This document shows, one piece after another, positions 4,802 through 50,257 of a DNA stretch of 50,257 nt. The position numbers and the translations under genes were made by a program. Origin of the DNA: a virus; the IMG/VR virus record IMGVR_UViG_3300021090_000030, positions 1-50,257 of that record; one strand, given 5' to 3'. The notes beneath the pieces are model-generated. The model worked only from the letters and a program-made list of their open reading frames with translations, did not search any database and was not told where the DNA came from. The stretch's first letter is position 1; each line of letters begins with the position of its first letter.

Positions 4802-5029
4802 GATAGCTCTTTTTGTCTTTCTTAGATACATGATCATATACGATGATTTGACAAACTGTATTGTGTTGTTGTTGTTGTATTAGTATTCTGTATTTTCCTA
4901 AAAATTCTGCCCCGTTGTAGATAAGCGTTATATCTTTGTAATATACTCATATCTCGTACGGGGCCAAAAATAGATAAATAAAATACAAGAATCCTACTGA
5001 ATACACAAACACAAACACAACACAAGTGT
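4802..5029. other. AT-rich non-coding gap with a large-loop hairpin
   Basis: About 280 bases without a convincing gene lie between 4802 and 5080. It includes a GTT/GTA-rich stretch (4861-4880) and 7-bp perfect arms GCCCCGT (4909-4915) and ACGGGGC (4958-4964) around a 42-base AT-rich loop. On the minus strand the stem is followed by AGAATTTTT. It could be a terminator or a small structured RNA; I cannot decide. Confidence 0.4.
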
Positions 5030-5063
5030 AAAAATGGCCGGACGACCGTCATGCACGTCGTCC
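5030..5063 (-). terminator. Rho-independent terminator after the 5081 gene
   Basis: 7-bp perfect stem GGACGAC (5040-5046) / GTCGTCC (5057-5063) with a 10-base loop. On the minus strand it is followed, four bases on, by TTTTT (5030-5034). It lies just past the stop at 5081. Confidence 0.65.
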
Positions 5064-5080
5064 CTGCCCGCCGGTCGCCG

Positions 5081-5290
5081 TTAGTCTACGAACGCCTCGC
5101 CAATGAAGACTCGCCGCCCGGAGACCAAGCTAGTGAACTCGACCGCCCTGACTTGCTTCGTGACATGCTCGCCGTCCTCAATATGGCTGACGTAGAGTAC
5201 GATCACTTCATAGTTCTTGCCGACCGTCATTCTCTTACACCGTTCCAGTAGCTCCGTATCTGACGGGCCACTACGTTCAGACTTGGACAT
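5081..5290 (-). CDS. Hypothetical phage protein (69 aa)
   Basis: MSKSERSGPSDTELLERC followed by a beta-rich region (NYEVIVLYVSHIEDGEHV). GGAG lies seven bases before the ATG and a terminator follows the stop, so it is likely a real gene at the end of an operon. Function unknown. Confidence 0.6.
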   Translation of the reverse strand: MSKSERSGPSDTELLERCKRMTVGKNYEVIVLYVSHIEDGEHVTKQVRAVEFTSLVSGRRVFIGEAFVD

Positions 5291-5343
5291 GTTGACACTC
5301 CTTCGTGAGTCCGGCCAACGGACTTCACACTAAAGCCCCTGTG

Positions 5344-5493
5344 CTACCGTCCGCAAGGGCCGCCAGGCAAACAACCGTTCAGCGAGCCCAGTATCCACGA
5401 GCCGTCTTCGAACAATGTAATGTGTGGAGCGACGAGGACAATTGTTGCGGCTAAGAGGATTATAACGAGCCAAAACGCTACTCTGTTCTTCAT
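5344..5493 (-). CDS. Small membrane or secreted protein (49 aa)
   Basis: ATG at 5493 follows AAAGGAGATATC, a strong ribosome binding site. The product opens with KNR and a hydrophobic helix (VAFWLVIILLAATIVLV). It ends with a Cys/Gly/Pro-rich tail (NGCLPGGPCGR) whose two cysteines could form a disulphide outside the membrane. No family recognised. Confidence 0.65.
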   Translation of the reverse strand: MKNRVAFWLVIILLAATIVLVAPHITLFEDGSWILGSLNGCLPGGPCGR

Positions 5494-5532
5494 GATATCT
5501 CCTTTCCTGATTCATCTTGTTAGTAAACCACG

Positions 5533-5565
5533 AATACCATCGAGCCTTGTTGACTCGATGGTATT
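5533..5565 (-). terminator. Stem-loop after the 5583 HTH gene
   Basis: Perfect 12-bp arms AATACCATCGAG (5533-5544) and CTCGATGGTATT (5554-5565) with a 9-base loop, 18 bases past the stop codon. The U-tract is weak (CGTGGTTT), but the position fits a terminator. Confidence 0.6.
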
Positions 5566-5582
5566 GGTAGCGCCTAACGATA

Positions 5583-5945
5583 TTACTCGATGGCGGCTTC
5601 GGTCTTCACGTTCGCGCGTGCGACGATGCCGGTGAAGGAACCTTCTGCGATCAAGTTCCGAAGGGCATCAGCCTCATCAGCGTTCATGTAGAGCACGAAC
5701 TTGTTGCGGCCGTCTTCTCGACGGGTGTGGCTGGCTGCAGCTGAGCGCCAGGCTTCGAAAGCCTCGACGGTGAACTCGCGCCGCAGCGTCTTGCTGTTCT
5801 CGGCTACAGGGACGAGCTGGCTGACCAGTGCGCCACTGCGAATCGCCTTACGAATGTATAGCGCGCTCAGACCACTCAGCGCGACGGCTGAAGCTATGGT
5901 CAGGTTGGCCTCATTGGCCTCGGATACTGCGTTCTTCTTGGACAT
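5583..5945 (-). CDS. Excisionase-like HTH protein, paralogue C
   Basis: Start at 5945 is set by AAAAAAGGAGACAACA; the longer frame to 6023 lacks a site. 120 residues. HTH in residues about 15-40 (ASAVALSGLSALYIRKAI). The C-terminal block HTRREDGRNKFVLYMNADEA is nearly identical to that of the 6903 protein and resembles a ribbon-helix-helix strand plus helix. Probably a dimeric DNA-binding regulator. It is preceded by a promoter at 6125-6152 and the 14-bp inverted repeat at 6176-6217, and is followed by its own stem-loop, so it looks monocistronic. Confidence 0.8.
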   Translation of the reverse strand: MSKKNAVSEANEANLTIASAVALSGLSALYIRKAIRSGALVSQLVPVAENSKTLRREFTVEAFEAWRSAAASHTRREDGRNKFVLYMNADEADALRNLIAEGSFTGIVARANVKTEAAIE

Positions 5946-6124
5946 TGTTGTCTCCTTTTTTGTTGCCGGCATGAGCGGACCGGTGGCCGTTTGGGTCGAT
6001 CTTCTGCCCAGACGGCGCTTCAATACTTTTACGAAGCTGACGCATCATGATGCGCGTGTTCAATAAGACATTGAAACGCCGCTTGGAAAGAAGATGTATT
6101 TGGTTGGTAACGTTCTATGTTATT

Positions 6125-6152
6125 ATTATATAACATCTACAAGAATATTGAA
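6125..6152 (-). promoter_or_regulatory. Candidate promoter of the 5583-5945 regulator gene
   Basis: Minus strand: TTCAAT (6147-6152), 16-bp spacer, TATAAT (6125-6130). The -35 is weak. Directly upstream is a half site ACGTGAC and then the 6176-6217 inverted repeat, suggesting regulator-dependent activity. Confidence 0.5.
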
Positions 6153-6175
6153 CGTGACAAAAGTACCATTTTTTA

Positions 6176-6217
6176 CGTGACGTTTGTTCCGTAGCTGATG
6201 GATGAACAAACGTCACG
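6176..6217. repeat. 14-bp inverted repeat carrying the CGTGACGTTTGTTC motif
   Basis: Perfect arms CGTGACGTTTGTTC (6176-6189) and its complement GAACAAACGTCACG (6204-6217) with a 14-base spacer. The same core occurs twice as direct repeats at 7313-7354. No U-tract follows on either strand, so an operator is more likely than a terminator. Confidence 0.7.
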
Positions 6218-6227
6218 CATATTATGG

Positions 6228-6401
6228 TTAGTCTTCCTTGGATTCTGCGTATAGGCGTACGTCGGTAAGGAGGTCTTGGGCATCATCGAAATCCCACCAA
6301 TACTCCTCGCCTTCCTGATGTTCACATTCCGCAATGTACTCCTCAGCTAGGGAGGCAGGAAAGTTTTTTCGTACAAGGGCTAACGCCGCGTTGCGTTCCA
6401 T
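6228..6401 (-). CDS. Small acidic protein (57 aa)
   Basis: Start at 6401 follows AAGGTGTAAC and lies one base past the stop of the 6403 gene. The upstream part of the longer frame is out-of-frame sequence of that gene. Product MERNAALALVRKNFPASLAE... is helical with an acidic aromatic middle (EGEEYWWDFDDAQDLL). Function unknown. Confidence 0.6.
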   Translation of the reverse strand: MERNAALALVRKNFPASLAEEYIAECEHQEGEEYWWDFDDAQDLLTDVRLYAESKED

Positions 6402-6402
6402 G

Positions 6403-6540
6403 TTACACCTTCTGAATCTTGACTTGAACGACTTGCACTTTGAAGATGAGGCGCCGGAGGCCGTAGGTGGGATAGGCCCGCTGGCCCTTATCCGCTTCCT
6501 TGAGCATCTTCTGTATTTCATGTACCGTCTTAGTTTTCAT
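6403..6540 (-). CDS. Small basic protein (45 aa)
   Basis: ATG at 6540 is preceded by AAGGAGACTGAT. The product MKTKTVHEIQKMLKEADKGQ is helical and then beta-rich (LIFKVQVVQVKIQKV). One base separates its TAA from the next ATG. The good site and tight spacing argue for a real gene. No family assigned. Confidence 0.65.
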   Translation of the reverse strand: MKTKTVHEIQKMLKEADKGQRAYPTYGLRRLIFKVQVVQVKIQKV

Positions 6541-6634
6541 ATCAGTCTCCTTACGTACAATGTTGCTGCAATTGGTTGATTATCCAGCGGCGCCACGTGG
6601 AGGCTTGCGTCTGCCGCCTTCCCCCTTGCTGATG

Positions 6635-6793
6635 TTATATGTGAGTGAAGATGAAGCCGAGGATGAGAGCTAGCGCGCCCAGAAGCGGAATTACGATCGC
6701 TGCGCCGCTCGGCGTCCGGCTGAAGTCATACTCGATCTTCTTCCCATTGACGATACCCCTATTGTTGTTCTGGTTGCTGGTGTAAGTATTCAT
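6635..6793 (-). CDS. Small membrane protein (52 aa)
   Basis: ATG at 6793 follows TAGGAGACTATC. The Asn-rich hydrophilic N-terminus (NTYTSNQNNNRG) is followed by a C-terminal membrane helix (AAIVIPLLGALALILGFIF), so it is tail-anchored. No family recognised. Confidence 0.65.
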   Translation of the reverse strand: MNTYTSNQNNNRGIVNGKKIEYDFSRTPSGAAIVIPLLGALALILGFIFTHI

Positions 6794-6902
6794 GATAGTC
6801 TCCTAAATTGAGCAGCTTTGATTTGGCGCAGAGTTTCGGATCTGCCTGCCTGACTGCCTTAGTAGGCTCTTCCCCCCTGCCTACCCGTCGGCTTCGCTCT
6901 TT

Positions 6903-7229
6903 TTACTCGGCTTCGGTTACTTTCTGATTCGTGCGTTGAAGCGTCGTAATGAAATCAGAATCTTTCAGAAGTTGCTGAATCGCGGCTTCTTCGTCGGCAT
7001 TCATGTACAAGACGAATTTGTTTCTGCCATCTTCACGCTTGCTGTGAGCGCCGCTGGATGCACGCCACGTTTCAAAGTCGCCTAAGTCGATCCAATTCTT
7101 CTCGATTTTCGAATCGCCGATCAGCTCTTTGGTTACCGGCAATTTGCCATGTGCGATCGCCTTTCGAATATATGAATTCGATAAACCACTGATTTCGATC
7201 GCTTCCTTGATACTAATTCTTTTGTTCAT
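6903..7229 (-). CDS. Excisionase-like HTH protein, paralogue D
   Basis: 108 residues, start preceded by TAGGAGACTAAA. HTH ISIKEAIEISGLSNSYIRKA, then a strand-helix C-terminus (SKREDGRNKFVLYMNADEEA) shared with paralogue C. Upstream are an AT-rich minus-strand -10 region (TATAAT near 7288) and two 19-bp direct repeats at 7313-7354. Likely a regulator that binds these sites (inference). Its HTH resembles that of paralogue C, so the pair probably arose by duplication. Confidence 0.8.
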   Translation of the reverse strand: MNKRISIKEAIEISGLSNSYIRKAIAHGKLPVTKELIGDSKIEKNWIDLGDFETWRASSGAHSKREDGRNKFVLYMNADEEAAIQQLLKDSDFITTLQRTNQKVTEAE

Positions 7230-7312
7230 TTTAGTCTCCTAAACTATTTTGTTTTTCAGACGACGCTCGTCTGATTTATATAATTATTATAATACACTAT
7301 CGATTTCATCAT

Positions 7313-7354
7313 ACGTGACGTTTGTTACGTTGTTGACGTGACGTTTGTTACGTT
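7313..7354. repeat. Two direct repeats of ACGTGACGTTTGTTACGTT, 23 bp apart
   Basis: Identical 19-bp copies at 7313-7331 and 7336-7354, a period of about two helical turns. They lie just upstream of the 6903-7229 regulator gene and next to an AT-rich stretch. The core is shared with the inverted repeat at 6176-6217. Possible operators or iterons. Confidence 0.75.
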
Positions 7355-7616
7355 ACATCTTTATGAACTTATTGTTATTACTACAATCTAGACAGTAGTA
7401 CGTTGATTCTTCAAAACAACTAAACTTTCCAAATCTACCATAGTTCATCGTAAAATATGTATTACATTTATTACAACGAAAGTTTGGTTCATTACGATTA
7501 TTTAGAAAGTAATCAGCTCTTTTTGGTATGAATCGTTTATTCAACTTCTTTACAGATTGTTTTACAACTTCAGATTCATAATTATTTACATATTGTTTGT
7601 AGTGATTCGTTTTCAT
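7353..7616 (-). CDS. Zinc-ribbon-like small protein, unusually AT-rich
   Basis: 87 residues, basic N-terminal half. It has two Cys pairs, CNKC and CLDC, about 20 residues apart (with an extra Cys between), fitting a zinc ribbon. Base composition is far more AT-rich than the surroundings, with Asn/Lys/Tyr-rich coding, which suggests recent transfer. No clear ribosome binding site precedes the ATG at 7616. It could be a DNA-binding protein or a remnant of an HNH-type protein. The coding call is moderate. Confidence 0.55.
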   Translation of the reverse strand: MKTNHYKQYVNNYESEVVKQSVKKLNKRFIPKRADYFLNNRNEPNFRCNKCNTYFTMNYGRFGKFSCFEESTYYCLDCSNNNKFIKM

Positions 7617-7650
7617 AATACAATAATAACATACAACATAAAGGATTCAC

Positions 7651-7692
7651 CGTGACATTCATCACGTCTTTATGGGTATCTTTGTCACGTTG
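7651..7692. promoter_or_regulatory. Cluster of CGTGA/TCACG half sites
   Basis: CGTGACATTCATCACG (7651-7666) is an imperfect palindrome with 5-bp arms, and TTTGTCACGTTG follows at 7681-7692. The half site CGTGAC matches the core of the repeats at 6176-6217 and 7313-7354. Position is upstream of the 7353-7616 gene. Confidence 0.45.
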
Positions 7693-7709
7693 TATATCCA
7701 ACAATAGGT

Positions 7710-8130
7710 ATGAGAATGGTATGAGAAACCGATGAGAAACCGATGAGTGGAGTCTGAGAAGACCCTGAGAAACCAATGAAGGGAGTATGAAGGGAGTATG
7801 AGAAACCCATGAGAAACCCTCAAGTAGTCTGAGAATGGTATGAGAAGACCCTGAGAAACCAATAAGTGGAGTATGAAAGTAGTCTGAGAGACCTCTCATG
7901 TAGTCTGAGAAACCCATTAGAGGCACGTGAGAATGAGATGAGTGGTGAGGGTCTGGTGTGGTTATATGAGAACAAGATGAAAGGCACATTAGAATAGTAT
8001 AAGAAACCCATGAGTATAGTCTGAAAGACCGATGAGAGGTCGATGAGGAACCGATGAGAATAGTCTGAGAACCATATGAGAAACCGATGAAGGGTTGATG
8101 AGGGGTACGTGAGAATGACGTGAGTTTTTG
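7710..8130. repeat. Array of about 37 degenerate 11-bp tandem repeats
   Basis: Plus-strand units follow the pattern (A/C/G)TGAGAA + 4 variable bases. Examples are ATGAGAATGGT (7710), ATGAGAAACCG (7721, 7732, 8076), CTGAGAAACCA (7765, 7851), ATGAAGGGAGT (7776, 7787) and ATGAGAATAGT (8054). The 11-bp register is kept from end to end except for short units at 7820 and 7895 and a 16-base interruption at 7950-7965. The strand is purine-rich. An 11-bp period is not a multiple of three and all three minus frames stay open only because the repeat lacks stops, so it is not coding. It lies within the only gap longer than 500 bases in the genome (7617-8197). Confidence 0.9.
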
Positions 8131-8184
8131 AGGCCCAGTGCTGTCAGCGTGTCTAATATCTCGACCATACCAAATGCCCATGGT

Positions 8185-8198
8185 AACTAAAATTAGTT
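8185..8198. promoter_or_regulatory. Operator-like dyad AACTAA-AA-TTAGTT
   Basis: Perfect 6-bp arms around AA, located between the 11-bp array and the stop codon of the 8198-9070 gene (overlapping the stop by one base). Same dyad as at 1086-1099. Confidence 0.5.
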
Positions 8199-9070
8199 CA
8201 CGGTCTCAGTTCAAAACCGCGGGCAACTAATATCTGATATAGTGCCTTAGAAGGAATGCGTGTCTTGTCGTATATTAGTCCCAACGTATGTCCCTTACGA
8301 TACATGTCAACTGCCATATCAACCTGTTCGACAGGATAGCTTGTGTTTCTGCCTCTAAGTGCAACACCCCGTATACGTAACTCATGGTAGAGCGTGGTTG
8401 GACTAACTCCTGTCTTGAGAGCTATCTCATTTGTGATTATTCCTGCACAGTACATTTCAACCGCCTTATCGAGTCTCTCAACATCAACATTGTAACCCCT
8501 CTTTGCAATTCCCCTGATAGCTAATGCTTTGTAGAGTACCGTGGAAGTGACTCCCGTCGCTACATAAACAACACTTAGAGTCTCCATTTGGATGTACATC
8601 TTAACTGCCTTGTTTAGCTGCGTCAAGCGGACGTTATTTGTTGAGCGATTTGGCATTCCCAACTTCTCTAGCTCTGCATATAACCCCGAAGGAGAGATTC
8701 CTGTCTCCACATAAATCGAAGATACCTTCGCGCCGGCGTTGTACATTGCTACGGCTGTCTGCTTTCGGGTCTCCGTCACTCCCTGTGCCTCAACTGCGAC
8801 GGCACGAATGGGTACGCCCTTTTTGTCTAGTAAGGTATATAGTGTTGCGGGGTTTAGATGCCATTTCCCTAGTACGTCCTTTACAGGCATATCCGACTGG
8901 TAATCTTTGCAAATGGCGTCTGCGTTGTTTATGTCAGGAGTACGACCGTAGGCTCTTAATATTTTTCTGACCGCTGTCTCAGATAAATCGGTGTTCGTAG
9001 TGAACTCTTGCATATCTCTAATCCCCGCGTCGTACATCTCCAGCACTTCAATATCTTGGTCTGTAGTCAT
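8198..9070 (-). CDS. Tandem helix-turn-helix repeat protein (290 aa, about six HTH units)
   Basis: The whole protein is a string of similar units of 44-53 residues. Landmark tyrosines recur at about 13, 57, 110, 159, 207 and 257 (pattern AVxMY) and at 78, 131, 180, 228 and 278 (pattern TxLYxxL). Typical unit: DKAVEMYCAGIITNEIALKT then GVSPTTLYHELRIRGVALRG. Each has the helix-turn-helix look of transposase or resolvase N-termini (GVSPTTLY as recognition helix) but no catalytic domain follows. AAAGGAG precedes the ATG. The stop is next to the 11-bp repeat array, which suggests that the protein reads that array with one HTH per helical turn (inference). Function otherwise unknown. Confidence 0.85.
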   Translation of the reverse strand: MTTDQDIEVLEMYDAGIRDMQEFTTNTDLSETAVRKILRAYGRTPDINNADAICKDYQSDMPVKDVLGKWHLNPATLYTLLDKKGVPIRAVAVEAQGVTETRKQTAVAMYNAGAKVSSIYVETGISPSGLYAELEKLGMPNRSTNNVRLTQLNKAVKMYIQMETLSVVYVATGVTSTVLYKALAIRGIAKRGYNVDVERLDKAVEMYCAGIITNEIALKTGVSPTTLYHELRIRGVALRGRNTSYPVEQVDMAVDMYRKGHTLGLIYDKTRIPSKALYQILVARGFELRP

Positions 9071-9190
9071 GTTGTGTTCTCCTTTCGATCTTGAATTATA
9101 AATAATTATACAACAGTTAGAAAGAAAAAGCCATTAGAAACTAATCTTAGTCTCCGGGACCTTTGTGTTGCCGTAAGGTACAATTGTGTT
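9071..9190. promoter_or_regulatory. Divergent control region between the two transcription blocks
   Basis: Minus strand shows two TATAAT boxes between 9092 and 9110 for the HTH-repeat gene, without a clear -35. Plus strand shows TACAAT (9179-9184) only seven bases before the terminase ATG. Between them lies GAAACTAATCTTAGT (9137-9151), the inverse of the 15-mer at 1118-1132. The arrangement suggests one regulator acting on both blocks. Confidence 0.55.
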
Positions 9191-9721
9191 ATGAGTGACG
9201 AAGACGAAGATATTGTTAGAGTATGGGATCAACAGCCTGGAGAAGGCGATATATGGTACAGGATATTTACTAAGTACTATTTACCGTTGGGGCAGAAAAG
9301 AAATCTTCGGACTGCATTCGAATATTACCTTCGAATGGAGAAACCTATTGACTACATTGATGTAGATCCCGATAACTTCAAGAACATTCCCGCTCATTGG
9401 ACCCAACATGCATTTAAGTTCGAGTGGGCTAAGCGTGCGTTAGAATTCGATCAGGCCTCTGCTCCGGACTTTTCTATGCTACAAGTAAGTCAAACGTTGG
9501 AGTTCCTACGTGAGCATGCTATGAAAGCTGCATATGCTCTTGTAGAGTCACTAACTAATGAGAGAACTAGGGTCCAGGCAGCCAACTCGATTCTTAATCG
9601 TAGTGGCATTCCTGAGGTTAGTGAAGTAAACCTAAAGTCTGCGGTTTCGATAACTGCAGATGAAATGGCTGCAGCACAAGAAAAGGTCACCGAGTGGATG
9701 ACGCAAAAGAAGAGTGGCTAG
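9191..9721 (+). CDS. Putative terminase small subunit
   Basis: 176 residues, placed directly before the large subunit and overlapping it. Contains FKFEWAKRALEFD and a helical C-terminal half with NERTRVQAANSILNRSGIP, a pattern common in small terminases. Family role: recognises the packaging site and activates the large subunit. No good ribosome binding site precedes the ATG; a TACAAT box ends seven bases upstream, so the mRNA may be nearly leaderless. Call rests on position and weak similarity. Confidence 0.7.
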   Translation: MSDEDEDIVRVWDQQPGEGDIWYRIFTKYYLPLGQKRNLRTAFEYYLRMEKPIDYIDVDPDNFKNIPAHWTQHAFKFEWAKRALEFDQASAPDFSMLQVSQTLEFLREHAMKAAYALVESLTNERTRVQAANSILNRSGIPEVSEVNLKSAVSITADEMAAAQEKVTEWMTQKKSG

Positions 9722-11163
9722 CATGTTCACTGTCGTTCGTATATTTTGTAGATCGGTACGTAAAGATCTACGATGCTACGTCTGGTGGTTGGATTCCGTT
9801 TGAACTTTGGCCCGAACAGGTTCGAGTAGCCGAAGAGCTCGTTAACAACCGATTAGTTGCTATCCTGAAAGCGCGTCAGTTGGGTTTGACGTGGTTGGTG
9901 CTCGCTTACATACTATGGATGATGGTTTTCCATCCGGCAGGCACAATGCTTCTATTTTCTCGTCGTGAAGTAGAAGCTATCTACATGCTGGATAAACGTC
10001 TCAAAGGTATGTATAATCGTCTACCTGAGTGGATGGGAGTACGGTCTATTATTTCGGACAGCGCACACATCTGGGAATTGAGTAACGGTTCAGTCGCTTA
10101 CGCATTCCCAACTACTGCAGGTGATTCGTACACAGCTACTTTGGCTTTTGTAGATGAAGCAGATCTATTGCCTGATCTCGACGATCTGATGTTGGCAGTC
10201 AAGCCAACCATTGATGGTGGAGGCAAGATGATTTTGCTAAGCAGGTCCGACAAAGCAGCTCCGAACAGCCCGTTCAAGAAAATATTCATTGAGGCTTGGG
10301 CCGGCAGAAGTGCTTGGAAAGGTATTTTCCTACCATGGTTCGCTAGACCATCCCGGACTGCTAAATGGTACAAAGACCAAGAAGACGACTTTATGTCTCG
10401 AACTGGAACTAGTGATGGTCTACACGAGCAGTACCCAGCAACTCCTGAAGAAGCTCTGGCACCCAGGTCGCTAAACAAAAGGATTCCGTTTGCATGGTTG
10501 CAGAGATGTTATGTACCAATGAAGGGAACGAGGCATGCTAGTATCAACGGACTTACAGTATACCGAGAGCCACAATTGGCACACTCATACATCATATCAG
10601 GAGACCCGGCTGAAGGAAACCCGACATCAGACGATTCGTCTGCACACGTACTAGATGGTCTGACCCTGGAAGAGTGTGCTATGTTAGTTGGTAAGTTCGA
10701 ACCGCTAATGTTTGCAGAGCAGCTTTTAGAGATTTCGGAGTATTATCGTGACGCAGATATAATGGTTGAACGTAATAATCATGGACATGCGGTTATTGCA
10801 ACAATTCGAACTAAAGAAGACAAAGCACATCTCTTGATGAGAGGTCAAGACGGTCGGTATGGATGGCCACAAACCGGTAAGAGCAAGGCGCACCTTTATT
10901 CAGAGGGTGCTAAGTTACTGAAAGATGGAGCTCCTACGATACATAGTTCGGCAACTTTCCTCCAATTAGCCGATATCGAAGGAAGTACACTAAAAGCACC
11001 AGAAGGAAGTTTCGACGATCAGGCAGTAAGTTATATGTTAGGCGTACTAGCAGCTTCTGCCCCACCAGTACAGAACTTTGGATTCCAGTATGCCAGTAGC
11101 CATAGACACAATTCCAAACTTAACGCCCGTAGACGTCGCCATTCTATCGGCAGTATCAGCTGA
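9694..11163 (+). CDS. terL: Terminase large subunit
   Basis: 489 residues from a GTG start with AAAAGG upstream. N-terminal ATPase: Walker A variant KARQLGLTW (59-67), Walker B LAFVDEAD (150-157). C-terminal RNase H-like nuclease: ISGDPAEGNPTSDD with the first Asp, MVERNNHGHAVI, and GSFDDQAVSYML near the end. It drives ATP-dependent DNA translocation into the procapsid and cuts the concatemer. Overlaps the small subunit gene by 28 bases and the portal gene by 74 bases. Confidence 0.95.
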   Translation: MDDAKEEWLACSLSFVYFVDRYVKIYDATSGGWIPFELWPEQVRVAEELVNNRLVAILKARQLGLTWLVLAYILWMMVFHPAGTMLLFSRREVEAIYMLDKRLKGMYNRLPEWMGVRSIISDSAHIWELSNGSVAYAFPTTAGDSYTATLAFVDEADLLPDLDDLMLAVKPTIDGGGKMILLSRSDKAAPNSPFKKIFIEAWAGRSAWKGIFLPWFARPSRTAKWYKDQEDDFMSRTGTSDGLHEQYPATPEEALAPRSLNKRIPFAWLQRCYVPMKGTRHASINGLTVYREPQLAHSYIISGDPAEGNPTSDDSSAHVLDGLTLEECAMLVGKFEPLMFAEQLLEISEYYRDADIMVERNNHGHAVIATIRTKEDKAHLLMRGQDGRYGWPQTGKSKAHLYSEGAKLLKDGAPTIHSSATFLQLADIEGSTLKAPEGSFDDQAVSYMLGVLAASAPPVQNFGFQYASSHRHNSKLNARRRRHSIGSIS

Positions 11164-33579: not shown

Positions 33580-33909
33580 CTATTCAGTTGGCCCCTCCAT
33601 GTATATGGTTGTTCGTACCCAAATAATGAACCTCTGTACACTCTCATTGATCTCTCCGTCAAAGCTTTCAAGTAGCTTATACAAGCCCACCAAGCTCTTT
33701 CTCTTACCAGTCATCCAACACCATCCCCCTCGTTGTCTGTATACATTACCCCCAAAGATAAGCATGCTGGTACAGTGAACGTAGTGCTTAGAGAAGAAGT
33801 ATAGTTGATGTGCATCACCAGACCTAGTTGTATGAACATAGAATTTGGCAAACTTAGCAAGCACTTCTATGCGGTTCGGTGAAGCAAGTTCATCATACGA
33901 TCTGCTCAT
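33580..33909 (-). CDS. Hypothetical protein downstream of DNA polymerase (109 aa)
   Basis: Last gene of the leftward block. MSRSYDELASPNRIEVLAKF followed by basic, aromatic sequence with several Cys/His (HYVHCTSMLIF, RGGWCWMTGKRKS). No recognised motif. Overlaps the polymerase stop by 17 bases, so it is translated with it. Confidence 0.65.
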   Translation of the reverse strand: MSRSYDELASPNRIEVLAKFAKFYVHTTRSGDAHQLYFFSKHYVHCTSMLIFGGNVYRQRGGWCWMTGKRKSLVGLYKLLESFDGEINESVQRFIIWVRTTIYMEGPTE

Positions 33910-36238
33910 AAAGGACTCCTTCAGGTCTCTTTGCCCAAGTTAGCCTTCTCTCTCCGTTGGCCTTCCACTTAACCTCCGGTAAGTACCTAACACCCATTTC
34001 CTCCATAACTTCAACTCCATACCGTTCCATCTTGTCTGCATCATTGATGTCGACTTCAAGTACTATGCTGTCGTGTACTGTCAGAACGACATTGTGTACT
34101 GACTCCTCAACTTCACAAGCAGACATGAGCGTCAAGTCACTGGCAGTGCCTGCTACGGGAGCATGAACAGCTGCTTTGCGTGCTTCATCCATGTTTACTT
34201 TCGTAATTATAGGGAAATGACGACGTCTACCGAACCTGGACTGTACGAAGCCTTGTACAGCCATCTTGTCGAGCTGCTCCTGCTTGTAGTCGTGAAGTCT
34301 TGGCATTAGTCGATTGTAGTCTTTGACGAATTGTTTCGCCTCCGCAAGAGGCAGTCCAGCGTCACGAGCGAAGCTGTATTCGTTGCCACCATATATGTAT
34401 GAGAAGTTGAACATTTTAGTTCTTACACGCTGTGGCTTGGTATACGCAGATGTGTACATGCCAATGGCTACCTCTGAATGTAGGTCTCTGTCGTCGTCGT
34501 ATACCTTGATGAGGAACGGCTCCATCGCTTCAGCTGCTATCACACGTAGTTCTGCTTGTGAGTAGTCGACGATGAGTAATATCTTCCCGTCTTCAGCAAT
34601 GAACGCCCCACGTATAAGTGCACCAAATACATCATCCGGACGTGGTATGGTTTGCAGAGCAGGATTACGAGCAGACAATCTGCCCATCTCCGTTCCATTC
34701 ATTAAGAACGTTGCATGCACGCGACCGTTGATATCAACTGCTTCTAGAAGATTGTCTGCGTAGGAGTTTTTCATCTTTGCGATACGTCTATACTCCTGTA
34801 GATGGTCGATGAAAGGATGCCTGCCCGACAAAGGCTGCATTGCTTCATGATTAGTAGATCGAGGACCCAACTTCCTACTTCTCTGTAGAGGGAATCCTAA
34901 TGTATCGTAGACAACAACAGCCACTTGCTGAGTAGAACCTAAATTGATTTCCTGTATATTCACCGACTTACAAGCTGCTTCGGTTTCCTCTTCCATCTTA
35001 TTTTCTAGGAACTTTTGAACCTGCTGTAGATAAGGTACGTCTACTCTGATTCCACGAATTTCAATATCGACGAACGCATTCGAGCCGCGCATAGGTATGT
35101 TCTGGAATGGCCACTCATAACGATTCTGTTCCCTGAGTACTTTCGAAAACACCTTTTTTAGTTGTAGTGTTAGTATAACGTCTATACTACCATACTTACT
35201 TAATTCTTCGAAAGGTATCTTCGAGTACCGATCATTACGACTCTTTAGGTACTTCTTAATCAAATGTTCTTCGTAGTCTGGTATCCCGAAGTACTCGTAG
35301 ACAAGAGGTTTCAGGCCGTGCTTTGAATTCTCGTCTATAATGGAATGAGCTAGCATTGTATCGAAATCAAGATGTACGTTTATGCCTAAATGTGTTTTGA
35401 GAAAGATCTGGTCGAATTTGCCGTTGTGCGCTACTGTCTTGACCCTCGCAAAGAACTGACTTAGTATATGCCTCGTCTCTGGAACGTCATACAGCATTAT
35501 ATCATCTAGTACTACGGCATAATCCTCGGCCCAAGCAATTTGTAACATTAGGATGGGGTCAGGAGGCGTTCCGTCGTAGCGTTGGTACCAACGAGTTTGA
35601 TCAGTCTCGATGTCGAATGACACCCACGTATCATTTGGGACTTGACTTAGTACTTCCTCTAGACGTTGAGGAGTCTCGATATGCATGACGTAAGGGTCGG
35701 TCCATTTAGGATTTACAATAACGGGTGGGTCAACAAAACGTTTGACGTCACGCAAGAAGATACCGGCATCGTTTGGAGTACGGAGCACGTAAGCGGGATG
35801 ATATGTATGCATGTATGTCCTTCCTTCAATCTCCGCTAATATTCCTCTACCAAATGACTCTAGATCTAGAGTCTCCGAAGCAGTCCGTCCAAGAGCTAGC
35901 ACAGGGGCGTTCAGGTGGGCCAACTCTAGCATGAGCCTCGGACGGCATGCTTCGACTTCCTCAAACATCGGTTCGCGATTGTTGGGAGGTTTGCACATTA
36001 CTGCATTAGTCTTGTAGACCTCTTCCGTACTAATGTTGGTTTGGCTCAAAGCATAATCCAACAATGAGCCGCTAGGTCCCACGAAAGGCTTGCCTTGCTC
36101 AACTTCCACATTGCCGGGTGCTTCTCCAACTACTATCATCTTGGCGTTCTTAGGTCCAGATGGAGGAACGACAGGGCAAGCCTGTAATGAACATTCGTGA
36201 CATAAAGCGCCAGGTAGTTTACTTAAATCTAAAGACAC
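33893..36238 (-). CDS. DNA polymerase I family protein with N-terminal uracil-DNA-glycosylase-like domain
   Basis: 781 residues from GTG with CGGAGG upstream. Residues 1-170: family-4 UDG-like, with 4Fe-4S ligands C13, C16, C82, C98, GEAPG (39-43) and HPAYVLR (147-153). Residues about 190-370: 3'-5' exonuclease, SFDIETD (D209, E211), VAHNGKFDQIF, SKYGSIDVILTL. Residues about 385-781: PolA polymerase with motif A VDYSQAELRV, motif B TKMFNFSYIYGG (Phe at the sugar-discriminating site) and motif C TVHDSI. No 5'-3' exonuclease. It replicates the phage genome; the UDG part could remove or sense uracil at the fork. Glycosylase activity is untested. Confidence 0.92.
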   Translation of the reverse strand: MSLDLSKLPGALCHECSLQACPVVPPSGPKNAKMIVVGEAPGNVEVEQGKPFVGPSGSLLDYALSQTNISTEEVYKTNAVMCKPPNNREPMFEEVEACRPRLMLELAHLNAPVLALGRTASETLDLESFGRGILAEIEGRTYMHTYHPAYVLRTPNDAGIFLRDVKRFVDPPVIVNPKWTDPYVMHIETPQRLEEVLSQVPNDTWVSFDIETDQTRWYQRYDGTPPDPILMLQIAWAEDYAVVLDDIMLYDVPETRHILSQFFARVKTVAHNGKFDQIFLKTHLGINVHLDFDTMLAHSIIDENSKHGLKPLVYEYFGIPDYEEHLIKKYLKSRNDRYSKIPFEELSKYGSIDVILTLQLKKVFSKVLREQNRYEWPFQNIPMRGSNAFVDIEIRGIRVDVPYLQQVQKFLENKMEEETEAACKSVNIQEINLGSTQQVAVVVYDTLGFPLQRSRKLGPRSTNHEAMQPLSGRHPFIDHLQEYRRIAKMKNSYADNLLEAVDINGRVHATFLMNGTEMGRLSARNPALQTIPRPDDVFGALIRGAFIAEDGKILLIVDYSQAELRVIAAEAMEPFLIKVYDDDRDLHSEVAIGMYTSAYTKPQRVRTKMFNFSYIYGGNEYSFARDAGLPLAEAKQFVKDYNRLMPRLHDYKQEQLDKMAVQGFVQSRFGRRRHFPIITKVNMDEARKAAVHAPVAGTASDLTLMSACEVEESVHNVVLTVHDSIVLEVDINDADKMERYGVEVMEEMGVRYLPEVKWKANGERRLTWAKRPEGVLYEQIV

Positions 36239-36437: not shown

Positions 36438-37170
36438 CTTGTCTCCCAGAGGTCCAAGCAAGTAGTGACAAAGCGTTGTCGTAGGCAAGCCCGGAGTCGA
36501 AGTGCTCGTTCCATACATGCGATATATGTTCTGACTTAACCCTAATAGATCGGCCCTTCTGTGCGTAGGCGAAGGGAGCTGCAGTATCGATTCCACGAAC
36601 CCATGGGGCTATGGCTTTGAGTGCTGGTACTTCGATTCTAGGTTCTCCCCAAACACCTAACAAGTGGATGTTGTAGCTGTTGTGCCAACCCATTTGCTGG
36701 ATGAACGTTAGGATGTTCACTCTACCGTCGCCAAACTGTTCAGTGTGTTTAGGTATACACATGGTAGCAAACTCCATGTTTGATACGAAGAAGTTAGCAC
36801 AGCCCGTCCATTCTTCAAACGTCTCTCCCTGTGGTACCACAGCTCGCATTCTAGCAGGTATGATCTCTAGAACGTCTCGGTCCATGGTTTTCTCGATGGT
36901 AGCTTCGGCATCACGAAGAACGTCAGGCAGGACTACTTCGTCCACATGAAGCATCTGCATTGCGTCGTAAAGTTGTTTAGATGTTAGGAGAGACCCTTCT
37001 GCGGCGCCGTTGTCCATCATTATGAAGTCACCACGACGACTACGTTCTTTATAGAACTCAGCGTACTGAGTATCTTCAAGAAGATATTGGGCTAATACTA
37101 AGTGGTAGGTCAGTCTCATAGAGTTCAGTATCCCGAGACCAGCAAAATCGCTAATCAGTGCCAGTTTCAT
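36430..37170 (-). CDS. dpdA: Phage-type DpdA: 7-deazaguanine DNA transglycosylase
   Basis: 246 residues, much shorter than tRNA-guanine transglycosylases but with their two key Asp motifs: MMDNGAAEGS (D53, counterpart of DSGG) and VRGIDTAAPF (D195, the likely nucleophile), plus HLLGVWGEPRIEVPAL before it. Family role: exchanges guanine in DNA for a 7-deazaguanine, protecting phage DNA from restriction. Encoded in the same leftward cluster as folE, queE, queD and queC, which make the substrate. Overlaps folE by four bases. Confidence 0.87.
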   Translation of the reverse strand: MKLALISDFAGLGILNSMRLTYHLVLAQYLLEDTQYAEFYKERSRRGDFIMMDNGAAEGSLLTSKQLYDAMQMLHVDEVVLPDVLRDAEATIEKTMDRDVLEIIPARMRAVVPQGETFEEWTGCANFFVSNMEFATMCIPKHTEQFGDGRVNILTFIQQMGWHNSYNIHLLGVWGEPRIEVPALKAIAPWVRGIDTAAPFAYAQKGRSIRVKSEHISHVWNEHFDSGLAYDNALSLLAWTSGRQDA

Positions 37171-37712
37171 ACGCCTCCTACTAGATGTAGAAACTCTTGA
37201 CGTGCTTCCATAGACGTTAGAAACGCTCCGCGCATCTCACTTGTAACCATAGACGCGTTACGTTCTTTTACTCCACGACATGACATACACGTATGTACAG
37301 ACTTTACGATTACAGCCACGCCCTGTGCCTCTACAGTGTCTTTTAAGAAAGACGCTATGGCACGAGTAAACGTTTCTTGTGTACTTGGACGTGCCGCGAA
37401 GTGATGGACGATGCGAGGAATCTTGCTCACGCCTATCATCAACTTGTTAGGTATGTAACCTACATGGGCAGTGCCCGAAAACGGAAATAAGTGGTGTGCG
37501 CACAGGGCAGAGAACTCGATGCCCCTAACCACTATCAGCTGATTGGCTGTGGCTTTGAACGTTGTCGGATTGAAGTCAACGACCGAGCTTGTCTTGAACT
37601 CGTTCATTGCCTTCATCCAACGTTTGGCCGTCTCGTTGACTGAGTCGTCCCAAACAGTTTCGCCGAACGTGTCGGCTAAGAACTTTGCTAGTTGCTTCTC
37701 AAAAATTGCCAT
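37167..37712 (-). CDS. folE: GTP cyclohydrolase I
   Basis: 181 residues; start preceded by TAGGAGACCAAC. Zinc site ALCAHHLFPF and HTCMSCRGV, substrate-binding GTAHVGYIPN and KIPRIVHHFAARPSTQE. Converts GTP to dihydroneopterin triphosphate, the first step to 7-deazaguanines. In this genome it feeds QueD, QueE and QueC. Shorter N-terminus than the E. coli enzyme, otherwise complete. Confidence 0.95.
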   Translation of the reverse strand: MAIFEKQLAKFLADTFGETVWDDSVNETAKRWMKAMNEFKTSSVVDFNPTTFKATANQLIVVRGIEFSALCAHHLFPFSGTAHVGYIPNKLMIGVSKIPRIVHHFAARPSTQETFTRAIASFLKDTVEAQGVAVIVKSVHTCMSCRGVKERNASMVTSEMRGAFLTSMEARQEFLHLVGGV

Positions 37713-37721
37713 GTTGGTCTC

Positions 37722-38405
37722 CTATCTCATATTGAGTCTATATTGTAGTCGATCACCGAAGCGTGGTTGATACTGATGGTAATTAACCTGTCCCTGAGTA
37801 AGGAGTTCCATGGTCTTCTTTATGGACTGAACTCCTGGAGGACATCCCTCAGGCATCAATACAACACCTTCTAGAGTCTTGTCGTTCTCGAAGTAGAAAT
37901 AGTCTATCACTCCCTGCATATCTAGAACTGAGATTTCGTCGTCGACTACGAATTTGATTTCGTTTGTGATGTCTTTCAGCTCTGTAGGAGCTTGGAAGTT
38001 TAGATTCTTTTTCGGCGACCAAGTCACCCAATCTGGCGTTAACGTACCGACAAGGTTTTTGAGTCCCGACGTCTCAAGTTGTGTTGTATATCCCAAAGCC
38101 TTGCACGCCGCCAATATAGGGTCTAAGTTCCAAATGGTGGGTTCGCCCCCTGTAATAATAACGTGCCTTTCGTGGATAGCGTCCATAATCTCCGTTAAGG
38201 TCTTCACCTCACCACCAGGACCCCAAGTGTTTGCCGTCATGCCATTTGTACGACGCTTACCTTCTAACCAATTGGCTAAGGGTCCTGAATCACACCATGA
38301 ACAACCGACAGGACATCCCTGTAACCGAATAAATGTGGCCGGTATGCCCGTTAGAAGGCCTTCCCCTTGTATTGAATCGAACTGTTCATTCACTCTGTAG
38401 TTCAT
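37722..38405 (-). CDS. queE: 7-carboxy-7-deazaguanine synthase
   Basis: 227 residues. Start at 38405 (AGGAAG upstream) fits the family start better than the longer frame to 38483, which lies in the membrane gene. Opening VNEQFDSIQGEGLLTGIPAT, radical-SAM cluster motif C31-x3-C35-x2-C38, and ITGGEPT for S-adenosylmethionine binding. Uses SAM to turn 6-carboxy-tetrahydropterin into 7-carboxy-7-deazaguanine. Confidence 0.95.
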   Translation of the reverse strand: MNYRVNEQFDSIQGEGLLTGIPATFIRLQGCPVGCSWCDSGPLANWLEGKRRTNGMTANTWGPGGEVKTLTEIMDAIHERHVIITGGEPTIWNLDPILAACKALGYTTQLETSGLKNLVGTLTPDWVTWSPKKNLNFQAPTELKDITNEIKFVVDDEISVLDMQGVIDYFYFENDKTLEGVVLMPEGCPPGVQSIKKTMELLTQGQVNYHQYQPRFGDRLQYRLNMR

Positions 38406-38406
38406 G

Positions 38407-38961
38407 TTAGCTTCCTGTAGCCCCGTCAAACAACTCACGTAAGACAGGGAATATAATGATGCTGGTTGCAGCGAGTGGCTCACCTATAAGTGAAATACCT
38501 GCAATTAGTATTCTAAATAGTAGATGAGGCATCTGTTCTGCCCCAGTCAAAGTAACGGCCAAGTCAACGAAAGAACCGAACCGAAGGATGTCTGGTGCCA
38601 AGTAGTCAAAGTAAACGTCTATACTTATAGGTATCAAGGCAACCACACATACTGCTATCAAGATACCTCCATTCCATTGTTCTTTGACTCCGTATAAAAC
38701 CGTTCCCATCAAAGCCATTATTAGTCCTGTTGTAGCCAGGGATGTGAACCACCCTACTTGGTTGTTCGACATATGTTCTACACTTACTTGGCCTGCTAGC
38801 ACGTCTATGCCTATCAAGGAGACCAAAGCCGAAACAGCAACCAGGAACGAAAAGACAGCTAGGATGTACGGTCCTAAATCGAACATTCTAGCCAGCAACG
38901 TTGAATTCCTTTTAGTAGCGTAGCCTTGAGGTGTGTGTGGTCTTGCATTTTGATACGTCAT
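38407..38961 (-). CDS. Polytopic membrane protein inside the deazaguanine cluster (184 aa)
   Basis: About five membrane helices (about 30-52, 72-90, 98-115, 130-145, 152-178). N-terminal soluble Arg-rich tail. One base separates its stop from the queE start. No family recognised. It could be a host-envelope protein or unrelated cargo; its cellular role is not evident. Confidence 0.65.
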   Translation of the reverse strand: MTYQNARPHTPQGYATKRNSTLLARMFDLGPYILAVFSFLVAVSALVSLIGIDVLAGQVSVEHMSNNQVGWFTSLATTGLIMALMGTVLYGVKEQWNGGILIAVCVVALIPISIDVYFDYLAPDILRFGSFVDLAVTLTGAEQMPHLLFRILIAGISLIGEPLAATSIIIFPVLRELFDGATGS

Positions 38962-38963
38962 GT

Positions 38964-39224
38964 TTACTCTCCTTTCAATCGTTCAGCCATCTGCTTACAT
39001 AGTGTCGCATAACCTATGATGTCGTCGTAGTTATCAAGATGATACGGGTCGGACAGCATACGTATAAGCTTGGATAACATAAGTACCCAATTGTGCGAGA
39101 ACATGGGTGCTGTGTTAAGCATAGCCAAAAACGGGTCTGTCAGGGCACCCATAACCATTCCTGTTAGCTCGTGTGCATTACCGTAATGCTTTTCCTTCTC
39201 GTCGAGTAAGGATTGAATGTTCAT
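38964..39224 (-). CDS. DUF6378 / nucleotide-modification-associated domain-like protein
   Basis: 86 residues. Pattern EKHYGNAHELTG near the start and KLIRMLSDPYHLDNYDDIIG then YATL at the end, which recalls the small phage family with K-x-R-hydrophobic ... D-N-x-x-D-x-x-G-Y-A (DUF6378, related to the nucleotide-modification-associated domain DUF1599). Its position inside the base-modification cluster supports the link. Activity is not known. Confidence 0.6.
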   Translation of the reverse strand: MNIQSLLDEKEKHYGNAHELTGMVMGALTDPFLAMLNTAPMFSHNWVLMLSKLIRMLSDPYHLDNYDDIIGYATLCKQMAERLKGE

Positions 39225-39637
39225 TTGTTCATCTCCAGGTACATTATAGCATTCTGTAACTTTACAGGATCGTCGTCGAACCTACCAAGTCCATGATTGC
39301 ACTTTGCACATAGAAGTCCTCTTACCTTACCCGTCTTGTGGTCGTGATCGATCACCAACTTCTGACCTACACGAGTACATATCCCACAACCCCCTTCTTG
39401 TCGTTCAAACATTTCGTTGAACTGCTCAATGGTAAGGTTGTACAGAACTTTGAGGTTCGACCTTCTATGTATCTGCTTCGTTCGGTTAGCCTTGTGATAC
39501 GCCTTGTGTGCATCCTTTTCGCACTCTTTACAGCGGTTAGAAAGTCCGTCCTTAGAAGCTTTCCTACGATAGAACTCGCTAATAGGCTTCAGTATAGGAC
39601 GGTTTTCTCGCGCCGTGCATCCTGGACATAACTTCAT
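39221..39637 (-). CDS. HNH endonuclease, recombination endonuclease VII-like
   Basis: 138 residues. Zinc cysteines CPGC and CKEC at the N-terminus, then the HNH core CGICTR...KLVIDHDHKTGKVRGLLC...CNHGLG. This is the endonuclease VII-type fold, which resolves branched DNA in T4, but many free-standing phage copies act as homing nucleases. It sits between genes of the deazaguanine pathway (queE side and queD), overlapping the 38964 gene by four bases. Confidence 0.88.
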   Translation of the reverse strand: MKLCPGCTARENRPILKPISEFYRRKASKDGLSNRCKECEKDAHKAYHKANRTKQIHRRSNLKVLYNLTIEQFNEMFERQEGGCGICTRVGQKLVIDHDHKTGKVRGLLCAKCNHGLGRFDDDPVKLQNAIMYLEMNK

Positions 39638-40069
39638 TTAGACTCCTTCGTAAACAGCTACGCTTTTGGGGGTTTCATGTACGATAACTCTTACGTTTTC
39701 GACTTGTAGCATGAAGGCATTACGAACCCATCCATGGATAAGATGTGCTAGGGTCTCAGCCGTACTGTTGGGTACGCCCAAAATGAAAGCATCTCCGCGT
39801 TCGCTGGCAATGACTGCATACGGGTCACCGTGTCGAGTATTGCTCTGCGAGACGAGATACCGATGGTCCATCTGATCTATTAGTGGCTTGACGGCCTGGT
39901 CGAGAAGGCCATAGTCCAACACCATACCCTGTACGTCTAGCGTACCTGAATTTATCTCGACAACAACCTTATAGTTGTGTCCGTGAAGACGACCACACTT
40001 AGGATGTCCTTCGATCCTGTGCGCAGCTGAGAACCAATATTCTCGGGAGATTGTATATCTGTTATACAT
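39638..40069 (-). CDS. queD: 6-carboxy-5,6,7,8-tetrahydropterin synthase
   Basis: 143 residues. Zinc-binding FSAAHRIEGHPKCGRLHGHN, with the catalytic Cys in KCGRLHGH and the second motif MDHRYLVSQ; ETPKSVAVYE near the end. Converts dihydroneopterin triphosphate to 6-carboxy-tetrahydropterin. Overlaps queC by eight bases. Confidence 0.94.
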   Translation of the reverse strand: MYNRYTISREYWFSAAHRIEGHPKCGRLHGHNYKVVVEINSGTLDVQGMVLDYGLLDQAVKPLIDQMDHRYLVSQSNTRHGDPYAVIASERGDAFILGVPNSTAETLAHLIHGWVRNAFMLQVENVRVIVHETPKSVAVYEGV

Positions 40070-40850
40070 TGGGCCACTCCTCTAAGTCCTCAGTTGGAAC
40101 TTCTGGTCCCAGTATGTCGACCAACGAAATGTTGTAGCCTGTTGGGTCGTAGAAACCACACTCAGCAAAGGCATTAGCTCGCTCAATACAAGTAGGGCAT
40201 CGACCACAGTGAATGTACTCGTTCAATTCGGTTGTTACTGGATTGTAGCAAGACCAAGTTAGCTGCAGCGGAGCATCCAATTCAACTGCACGAGATACGA
40301 TGTCAGCCTTCGTCATCCAAATAAATGGGAAGACTAGACGGACCTTGTCGTACGTACCAACTCGTATAGCATTTGCCATCGCACCTAAGAACTCAGGTGT
40401 ACAATCTGGATACGCCCAGTCGTGTGCATCATCTCCGTGCGCTCCAATGTATACGTAATCGAATCCTCGTGCATCGGCTAACGCAGTTGCTATACTAAGG
40501 AGATTGGCATTACGGAAGGGTACGACTGTTGGGGAAGGACCTACTGACCCTTTGATTTCCCCATAAGTCATGTGAGGCATCTCAATCTCACCCATCAAAG
40601 CCGACCCGTGTCCATTGCTTGAGAAGATTTCGCTCGGCAAGTCGAAAGTAATACGGTGGATGTCGCACACAAATTCGTACTGCTCTTGGTACCATGCAAC
40701 TATCTGCGCTGCTGCTTGACTCTCTGCTTCGTTATGTAGACCGCCATACCCAATAGATACGGCTAGGATTTCGTCTGCTCCGTCAACGATTGCCTGAGAC
40801 AGTAGTGTGGTACTATCCAAGCCCCCCGAATGCAAGACGACTGCTTTCAT
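40062..40850 (-). CDS. queC: 7-cyano-7-deazaguanine (preQ0) synthase
   Basis: 262 residues. ATP pyrophosphatase loop VVLHSGGLDSTTLL near the N-terminus and a C-terminal four-Cys zinc site (SCYNPV, HCGRCPTC). Turns carboxy-deazaguanine plus ammonia into preQ0 in an ATP-dependent way. No amidotransferase domain is fused, unlike the gat-queC fusions that lead to archaeosine-type bases. Makes preQ0 the likely final substrate for DpdA. Confidence 0.95.
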   Translation of the reverse strand: MKAVVLHSGGLDSTTLLSQAIVDGADEILAVSIGYGGLHNEAESQAAAQIVAWYQEQYEFVCDIHRITFDLPSEIFSSNGHGSALMGEIEMPHMTYGEIKGSVGPSPTVVPFRNANLLSIATALADARGFDYVYIGAHGDDAHDWAYPDCTPEFLGAMANAIRVGTYDKVRLVFPFIWMTKADIVSRAVELDAPLQLTWSCYNPVTTELNEYIHCGRCPTCIERANAFAECGFYDPTGYNISLVDILGPEVPTEDLEEWPNV

Positions 40851-50220: not shown

Positions 50221-50257
50221 TATGAGCCTCCTGAAAAGGGTTTGAAAGAAAATGGCG
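50213..50257 (-). CDS. C-terminal end of the RuvC-like resolvase (continues from position 1)
   Basis: Reading minus from 50257 gives RHFL (the 12-base overlap, also encoded at 1-12) and then SNPFQEAHNE and TGA at 50213-50215. It completes the resolvase that starts at 429. Its end lies in the ribosome binding site and start of the 48-residue gene. Confidence 0.8.
   Translation of the reverse strand, partial: RHFLSNPFQEAHNE

Follow-up and report, generated by a model that had tools for sequence, protein, structure and literature searches.

An HTH-only bead protein beside a phased 11-bp repeat array: a candidate Cbp1-like regulator at a phage divergent hub

Genome organization and the divergent hub

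The window, which is the whole stretch of DNA analysed here, comprises the 50,257 bp of one virus record. Its two ends have 12 bp in common (1-12 and 50246-50257) and an ORF, RuvC-like by eye, reads across the end junction as far as the start of the next gene, so that the window very probably represents an entire genome, closed into a circle of about 50,245 bp. Its genes form a leftward arm, running from about 33.9 kb via the junction to 9,070, and a rightward arm, running from 9,191 to about 33.5 kb. The first gene of the leftward arm encodes a string of HTH units (the bead protein) and faces terS, terL and the portal gene. Behind its stop codon follow, in order, an 11-bp repeat array, a zinc-ribbon-like gene and a gene for an excisionase/MerR-type HTH protein. 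The features of the locus are listed below; G001, G002 and G003 are related phages.

5583-6023, minus strand: paralogue of the 6903-7229 protein (sequence comparison)
6903-7229, minus strand: 108-aa excisionase/MerR-type HTH protein with a REDGRNKFVLY motif, a rival candidate for binding the array; neighbour kept in G001, G002 and G003
7353-7616, minus strand: 87-aa zinc-ribbon-like protein (CxxC..CxxC) adjoining the array; homologues also in phages without the array
7711-8131, plus strand: array of 33 phased units of TGAR+7 nt, spaced 11 bp apart (pattern and phase counts)
8198-9070, minus strand: bead protein, six tandem trihelical HTH units and no other domain (repeat HMM, Pfam, PHROG, AlphaFold2)
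8199-8221, minus strand: terminator-like hairpin where the bead gene ends, ahead of the array (consensus match only)
9071-9190, no strand assigned: divergent intergenic region between the bead gene and terS, a candidate operator with a common TTAGAAAC/TTAGAAAA element
9191-9721, plus strand: terminase small subunit-like gene (terS), the divergent neighbour kept in the group (PHROG 6299, E 5e-5)
9694-11163, plus strand: terminase large subunit (terL; PHROG 2, E 1e-23), 71-73% identical in G001/G002

The TTAGAAAC element of the intergenic region recurs in G002 and in locus L183, and its counterpart in G001 is TTAGAAAA. Rfam gave no match within positions 5000-10000 of the window. Elsewhere on the minus strand, 33893-36238 encodes a 781-aa family A DNA polymerase with a 3'-5' exonuclease and an N-terminal uracil-DNA-glycosylase domain (PF03167, E 2.5e-24), and GTP cyclohydrolase-like, QueE-like and QueC genes occupy 37167-40850. 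The phage DNA may be modified with 7-deazaguanine, and proteins could then read G in the array differently.

Architecture of the bead protein

The bead protein has 290 residues. A repeat HMM places its HTH units at residues 4-47, 48-91, 101-144, 150-193, 198-241 and 248-290, a spacing of 44-53 aa, and AlphaFold2 returns six helical triads, in agreement with the six units of about 44-53 residues proposed in an earlier, sequence-only reading of this DNA. Pfam identifies HTH families only (HTH_7, E 2.3e-11; HTH_23, E 1.6e-6), and the protein matches PHROG 1303, 'DNA binding protein' (1e-26). Neither Pfam nor PHROG revealed a non-HTH domain, which bears out the earlier claim that the protein consists of HTHs alone.

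Structure prediction without an alignment was poor (pLDDT 57), and a 15-member family alignment was used instead. The resulting AlphaFold2 model contains 18 helices arranged as six groups of three, with a mean pLDDT of 85.7. The pTM is 0.35 and confidence dips at most linkers; the low pTM is as expected with beads joined by flexible linkers. The model describes a string of six trihelical beads on flexible linkers, and the single globular fold that would have spoken against the earlier reading was not seen. Base-contact positions of Hin-type HTHs (Hin, gamma-delta resolvase) served as a guide to recognition residues. By this analogy, the putative base-contact residues differ between the six beads, even though the TGAR core of the array is constant.

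A phased array of direct repeats

TGAR recurs at exact 11-bp spacing in three blocks (7711-7821, 7830-7906 and 7967-8131), which are separated by phase breaks and one degenerate stretch and contain no internal indels. All 33 phased units lie on the plus strand, at 75/kb in the array against 0.4/kb elsewhere, and 15 four-unit matches were observed against 0.00 expected from shuffles. The array is unique within the genome. Its last unit ends at about 8131 and the bead gene stops at 8198; the gap of 67 bp fits the earlier estimate of fewer than 70 bases.

In the 32 units that could be parsed, T1 and A3 are invariant, G2 is kept in 28 and position 4 is a purine in 31, while the remaining seven positions vary. 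The unit length corresponds to about one helical turn. The repeats are direct, tandem and of fixed length, as in iterons, and follow one another without the spacers that part the repeats of a CRISPR array. An antisense ORF spanning the array has no PHROG family match and looks like a by-product of a stop-free strand.

Higher-order structure was sought in the tails of the units. A super-period of six or seven units (66 or 77 bp) was absent from the window and from the G001 array described below, both arrays being short and the power of the comparison low. A 44-bp (four-unit) repeat is strong in both arrays, but we rejected it as a protein footprint: p is 0.05-0.19 under unit shuffling for a lag picked post hoc, and the period needs no footprint because segmental duplication suffices. 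The idea that the array is an amplified operator of the bead gene was likewise abandoned, as the best site of the array PWM at the bead promoter ranks only 439.

The bead family in related phages

Single-protein scans yielded no relatives, and single HTH units were too variable to be used for scanning by alignment; the array pattern and alignments of other proteins succeeded. G001 (locus L162) came from an IMG/VR-wide scan for runs of eight TGAR units and turned out to be a relative, G002 and G003 were found via alignment of the excisionase-type HTH protein, and 24 loci via alignment of TerL. A TerL search of prokaryotic genomes returned no relatives; there was one weak bead-like match in a MAG.

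After removal of near-duplicates, a bead gene lies divergent to terS in 15 distinct phage loci, and L219 is a sixteenth, more distant one. The encoded protein has three HTHs in 12 of the 15 loci, six in the window and seven in G001 (367 aa) and G002. When the units were scored against separate profiles for the first, second and third unit of the three-HTH proteins, the extra units of the long proteins scored best with unit 3; by this comparison the added beads stem from the final HTH. Units 6 and 7 are common to G001 and G002 but have no clear partner in the window in a unit-by-unit comparison, which indicates that members of the clade have both acquired and lost beads. The TerL tree has the form (G002,(window,G001)), with support of 1.0 for the clade and 0.936 for window plus G001.

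TerL is 71-74% identical in the near relatives. Between the window and G002, identity is 73% for TerL, 70% for portal, 66% for the primase, 61% for the excisionase-type HTH protein and 57% for TerS, but 32% for the bead protein, which on these sequence comparisons places it among the fastest-changing shared genes. The bead proteins of the window and G001 are 34% identical.

The 2.5 kb downstream of the bead genes are repeat-rich across the group (TRF cover 3.6% versus 0.33%), with repeats that are unrelated to one another. In G003 (L173), GGCGTCYCG occurs 11 times between 491 and 3188 in one orientation, partly at multiples of 18 bp, and once elsewhere in 48.5 kb. The early region of the distant relative L219 holds eight direct CCCGTGTA repeats in 29-30-bp steps (8950-9216).

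Occurrence of array and bead gene

The TGAR array is present in two of 13 group records, the window itself and its sister G001. The G001 array adjoins the seven-HTH gene and carries other tails (TGAGAACCACA, TGAGAGACACA and others) in mixed orientation, with 17 phased units on one strand and six on the other. None of the 11 other related records, several of which are fragments, has even three consecutive TGAR units. G002, with its seven beads, has no TGAR triplet anywhere, and its only other tandem array is a short one within the bead gene; the three-bead relatives scanned have no TGAR array either. G002 branches outside window plus G001; the array therefore belongs to the window/G001 lineage, a subgroup of the clade with added beads.

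Two expectations of the sequence-only reading are not borne out by this distribution. Homologues do not always sit beside 11-bp arrays, most being without one, which is largely the outcome that the earlier reading had itself named as refuting it. The number of HTHs (three, six or seven) does not change together with the array, as seven-bead G002 illustrates. The converse pairing fails too: no bead gene lay beside the arrays among the first 120 TGAR-array stretches listed from IMG/VR, and a fuller IMG/VR scan found one in the flanks of G001 only. The pairing is not obligate in either direction. The distribution amounts to at most one or two evolutionary events and is no proof of a functional pairing.

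We also discarded the notion that TGAR arrays are a common class of phage element with bead proteins as readers, as a reversed control motif is nearly as common (IMG/VR stretches with eight units: 52 for TGAR, 42 for the control). Only arrays with degenerate tails are somewhat enriched (nine versus two). The zinc-ribbon gene at 7353-7616 was rejected as an array-specific partner, being also present in G004 and G006, both of which are without the array.

Comparison with known systems

The PDB entry best matched by the bead family profile is 2LVS (E 4.3e-7), which scores above resolvase HTHs, and Foldseek also places 2LVS first, with a probability of 1.00 but an E-value of only 0.02. Profile and predicted fold agree on a relationship to 2LVS, of which a common HTH superfamily may be the whole reason. 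Archaeal Cbp1 and Cbp2 (2LVS; PMC10883916) resemble the bead proteins in consisting solely of tandem HTHs that arose by duplication, and they bind DNA repeats with the HTHs collinear along the site; in HTH-only Cbp1, the three HTHs line up collinearly with the repeat (PMC10883916). They differ in having two or three HTHs and in binding, in archaea, CRISPR repeats parted by spacers, whereas the window and G001 proteins have six or seven HTHs and occur in phages beside a spacer-less 11-bp array as candidate binders predicted from sequence. The Cbp1 type is the closest known kind of protein. In the strict sense the bead protein falls outside it, as the neighbouring repeats are no CRISPR array and its binding to them is a prediction.

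Among phage proteins, PHROG 1303 members of SPO1-like phages (for example BSP15_149 of Bacillus phage BSP15) have the same HTH unit, Y..G......G(I/V)S...LY..L...GV..RG. They carry two such units and a C-terminal extension, and no TGAR array was found in the whole genomes checked. A GIY-YIG endonuclease of Burkholderia phage BcepSauron has four tandem HTHs of the same module and a repeat tract of ~19 bp just upstream of its gene. It differs in possessing an N-terminal nuclease part (it is annotated as an endonuclease), and its repeats are CAAAAACTTTTG palindromes, not TGAR. This CAAAAACTTTTGA-type tract of ~19-bp repeats lies at 2260-2600 of L123 (BcepSauron), upstream of the four-HTH protein. 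No partition NTPase, as sought for a centromere of the ParMRC, TubZRC or ParABS kind, was found among the window proteins scanned.

A model for the locus

Our favoured reading, which we put forward tentatively, takes the bead protein to be a rapidly evolving, Cbp1-like regulator that binds DNA at the divergent hub and, in the window/G001 subclade, binds the iteron-like array as well. The protein is phage-specific, of Cbp1-like, HTH-only architecture, and is encoded divergently from terS where the two gene arms meet; its sequence-specific binding of DNA is predicted. The ancestral three-HTH form would bind a composite site near its own promoter in a sequence-specific manner, and thereby control the hub and its own gene. 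In the expanded clade, added beads would lengthen the DNA footprint. In the window/G001 lineage, the TGAR array, with one site per helical turn, would have arisen beside the bead gene, and the protein may coat it, building a nucleoprotein complex through which the hub (transcription, the start of replication, or both) is regulated.

Some form of binding of the array by the bead protein is quite possible, if short of probable. The proposal draws on the architecture, the 2LVS match, the collinear HTHs of Cbp1, the synteny with terS in 15 loci, the helical 11-bp spacing, the nesting in the TerL tree and the retention in G001 of bead gene, array and excisionase-type HTH gene despite differing repeat tails and bead proteins that are only 34% identical. 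Against it stand seven-bead G002 and the three-bead relatives without an array, the low-ranking promoter site, the missing super-period and the presence of other DNA-binding proteins nearby. The synteny of window and G001 could also reflect common descent only.

The favoured reading does not imply a fixed code of one bead per unit. A register of one HTH per 11-bp repeat, as first proposed for this locus, gains from the seven-HTH homologue beside the G001 array and from the collinear HTHs of Cbp1; it is at odds with the lack of a 66- or 77-bp period and with recognition residues that differ while the TGAR core is constant. A looser scheme, in which several beads per molecule span several turns, is compatible with all observations. 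A fast-changing reader with fast-changing sites would be an attractive hypothesis. A true modular, evolvable reader, one that grows and shrinks by duplication of the last bead, reads helically phased 11-bp sites along the array and co-evolves with it in bead composition in the window/G001 lineage, we regard as distinctly unlikely.

HTH-only proteins with three, six and seven beads in one genomic position form a natural series, and two long bead proteins beside a phased array and one seven-bead protein without an array offer a ready comparison of lengthening and specificity change. As a phage parallel to archaeal Cbp1, the family could be a source of simple modular DNA readers. By itself it does not establish a new class of system, and a modular code is not demonstrated.

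Alternative explanations for the array

The array could serve as a replication origin of the iteron type. Its reader would then be a replication protein, for instance the RepB/AEP-like 822-aa primase, or else the bead protein in the role of initiator. The direct repeats look iteron-like and, as in phage and plasmid origins, are about one helical turn long; arrays of six TGAR units elsewhere in IMG/VR sit in genes that by eye are replication-initiator-like and often precede a DnaC-like gene. The cumulative GC-skew minimum (7665) and maximum (33031) lie about half a genome apart, but masking the array shifts the minimum to 9155, the strand-switch point. The skew therefore mostly tracks gene orientation, and we set it aside as proof of an origin. 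In contrast to iteron arrays, the window array is not kept among near relatives, its absence from G002 and others being odd for an essential origin, and 11-bp tandem repeats in general abound in phage contigs, as the control motif shows. We consider an origin unlikely, although not far-fetched.

A binder other than the bead protein is conceivable in the excisionase/MerR-type HTH protein (6903-7229) or its paralogue (5583-6023), the bead protein then binding only its own promoter region. The gene of the former flanks the array in the window and G001, and its product is better conserved, at 56-61% identity across relatives against 32-34% for the bead protein. However, it is equally present in G002 and G003, both without the array. 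Palindromes resembling GTGAtctttgTCACG occur in the same tract of G001 and G002, with related ones in the window; they are its likelier sites than direct repeats, and this explanation is improbable. The GTGAtctttgTCACG-like palindromes lie upstream of the excisionase-type HTH gene (window 7300-7360 and 7650-7700; L171 9600-9730; L162 600-740) and are likely operators.

Slightly less credible still is a lineage-specific tandem-repeat expansion without any dedicated reader in a repeat-prone, noncoding early region. The unrelated repeats behind bead genes throughout the group would suit it. Yet T1 and A3 never change and G2 hardly does, while the tails vary, and core and spacing persist in G001 with different tails, a pattern that looks like selection on a bound core. 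Least probable is a pac/cos-like packaging tract for the terminase small subunit, since the location about 1 kb from terS/terL and the weak match of 6903-7229 to a terminase-small-subunit PHROG (E 2.9e-5) are countered by a circularly closing contig that lacks a fixed end at the array, by a TerL of the T4-like type, and by relatives with 71-74% identical TerL that differ in array presence.

Repeat arrays in other phages

Arrays of 11-bp TGAR units of the TGAGTCCTCAG type lie antisense within replication-initiator-like genes in L007, L008, L009, L013, L022, L024, L050, L056, L069, L070, L081, L088 and L170, several of them near a DnaC-like gene; both gene assignments were made by eye from sequence. 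These in-gene arrays are probably iterons. In L071, L074, L083 and L105, a 28-unit, 11-bp array of the TGAGTACTGTT type lies inside a gene that follows a ParA-like gene and is possibly an in-gene centromere.
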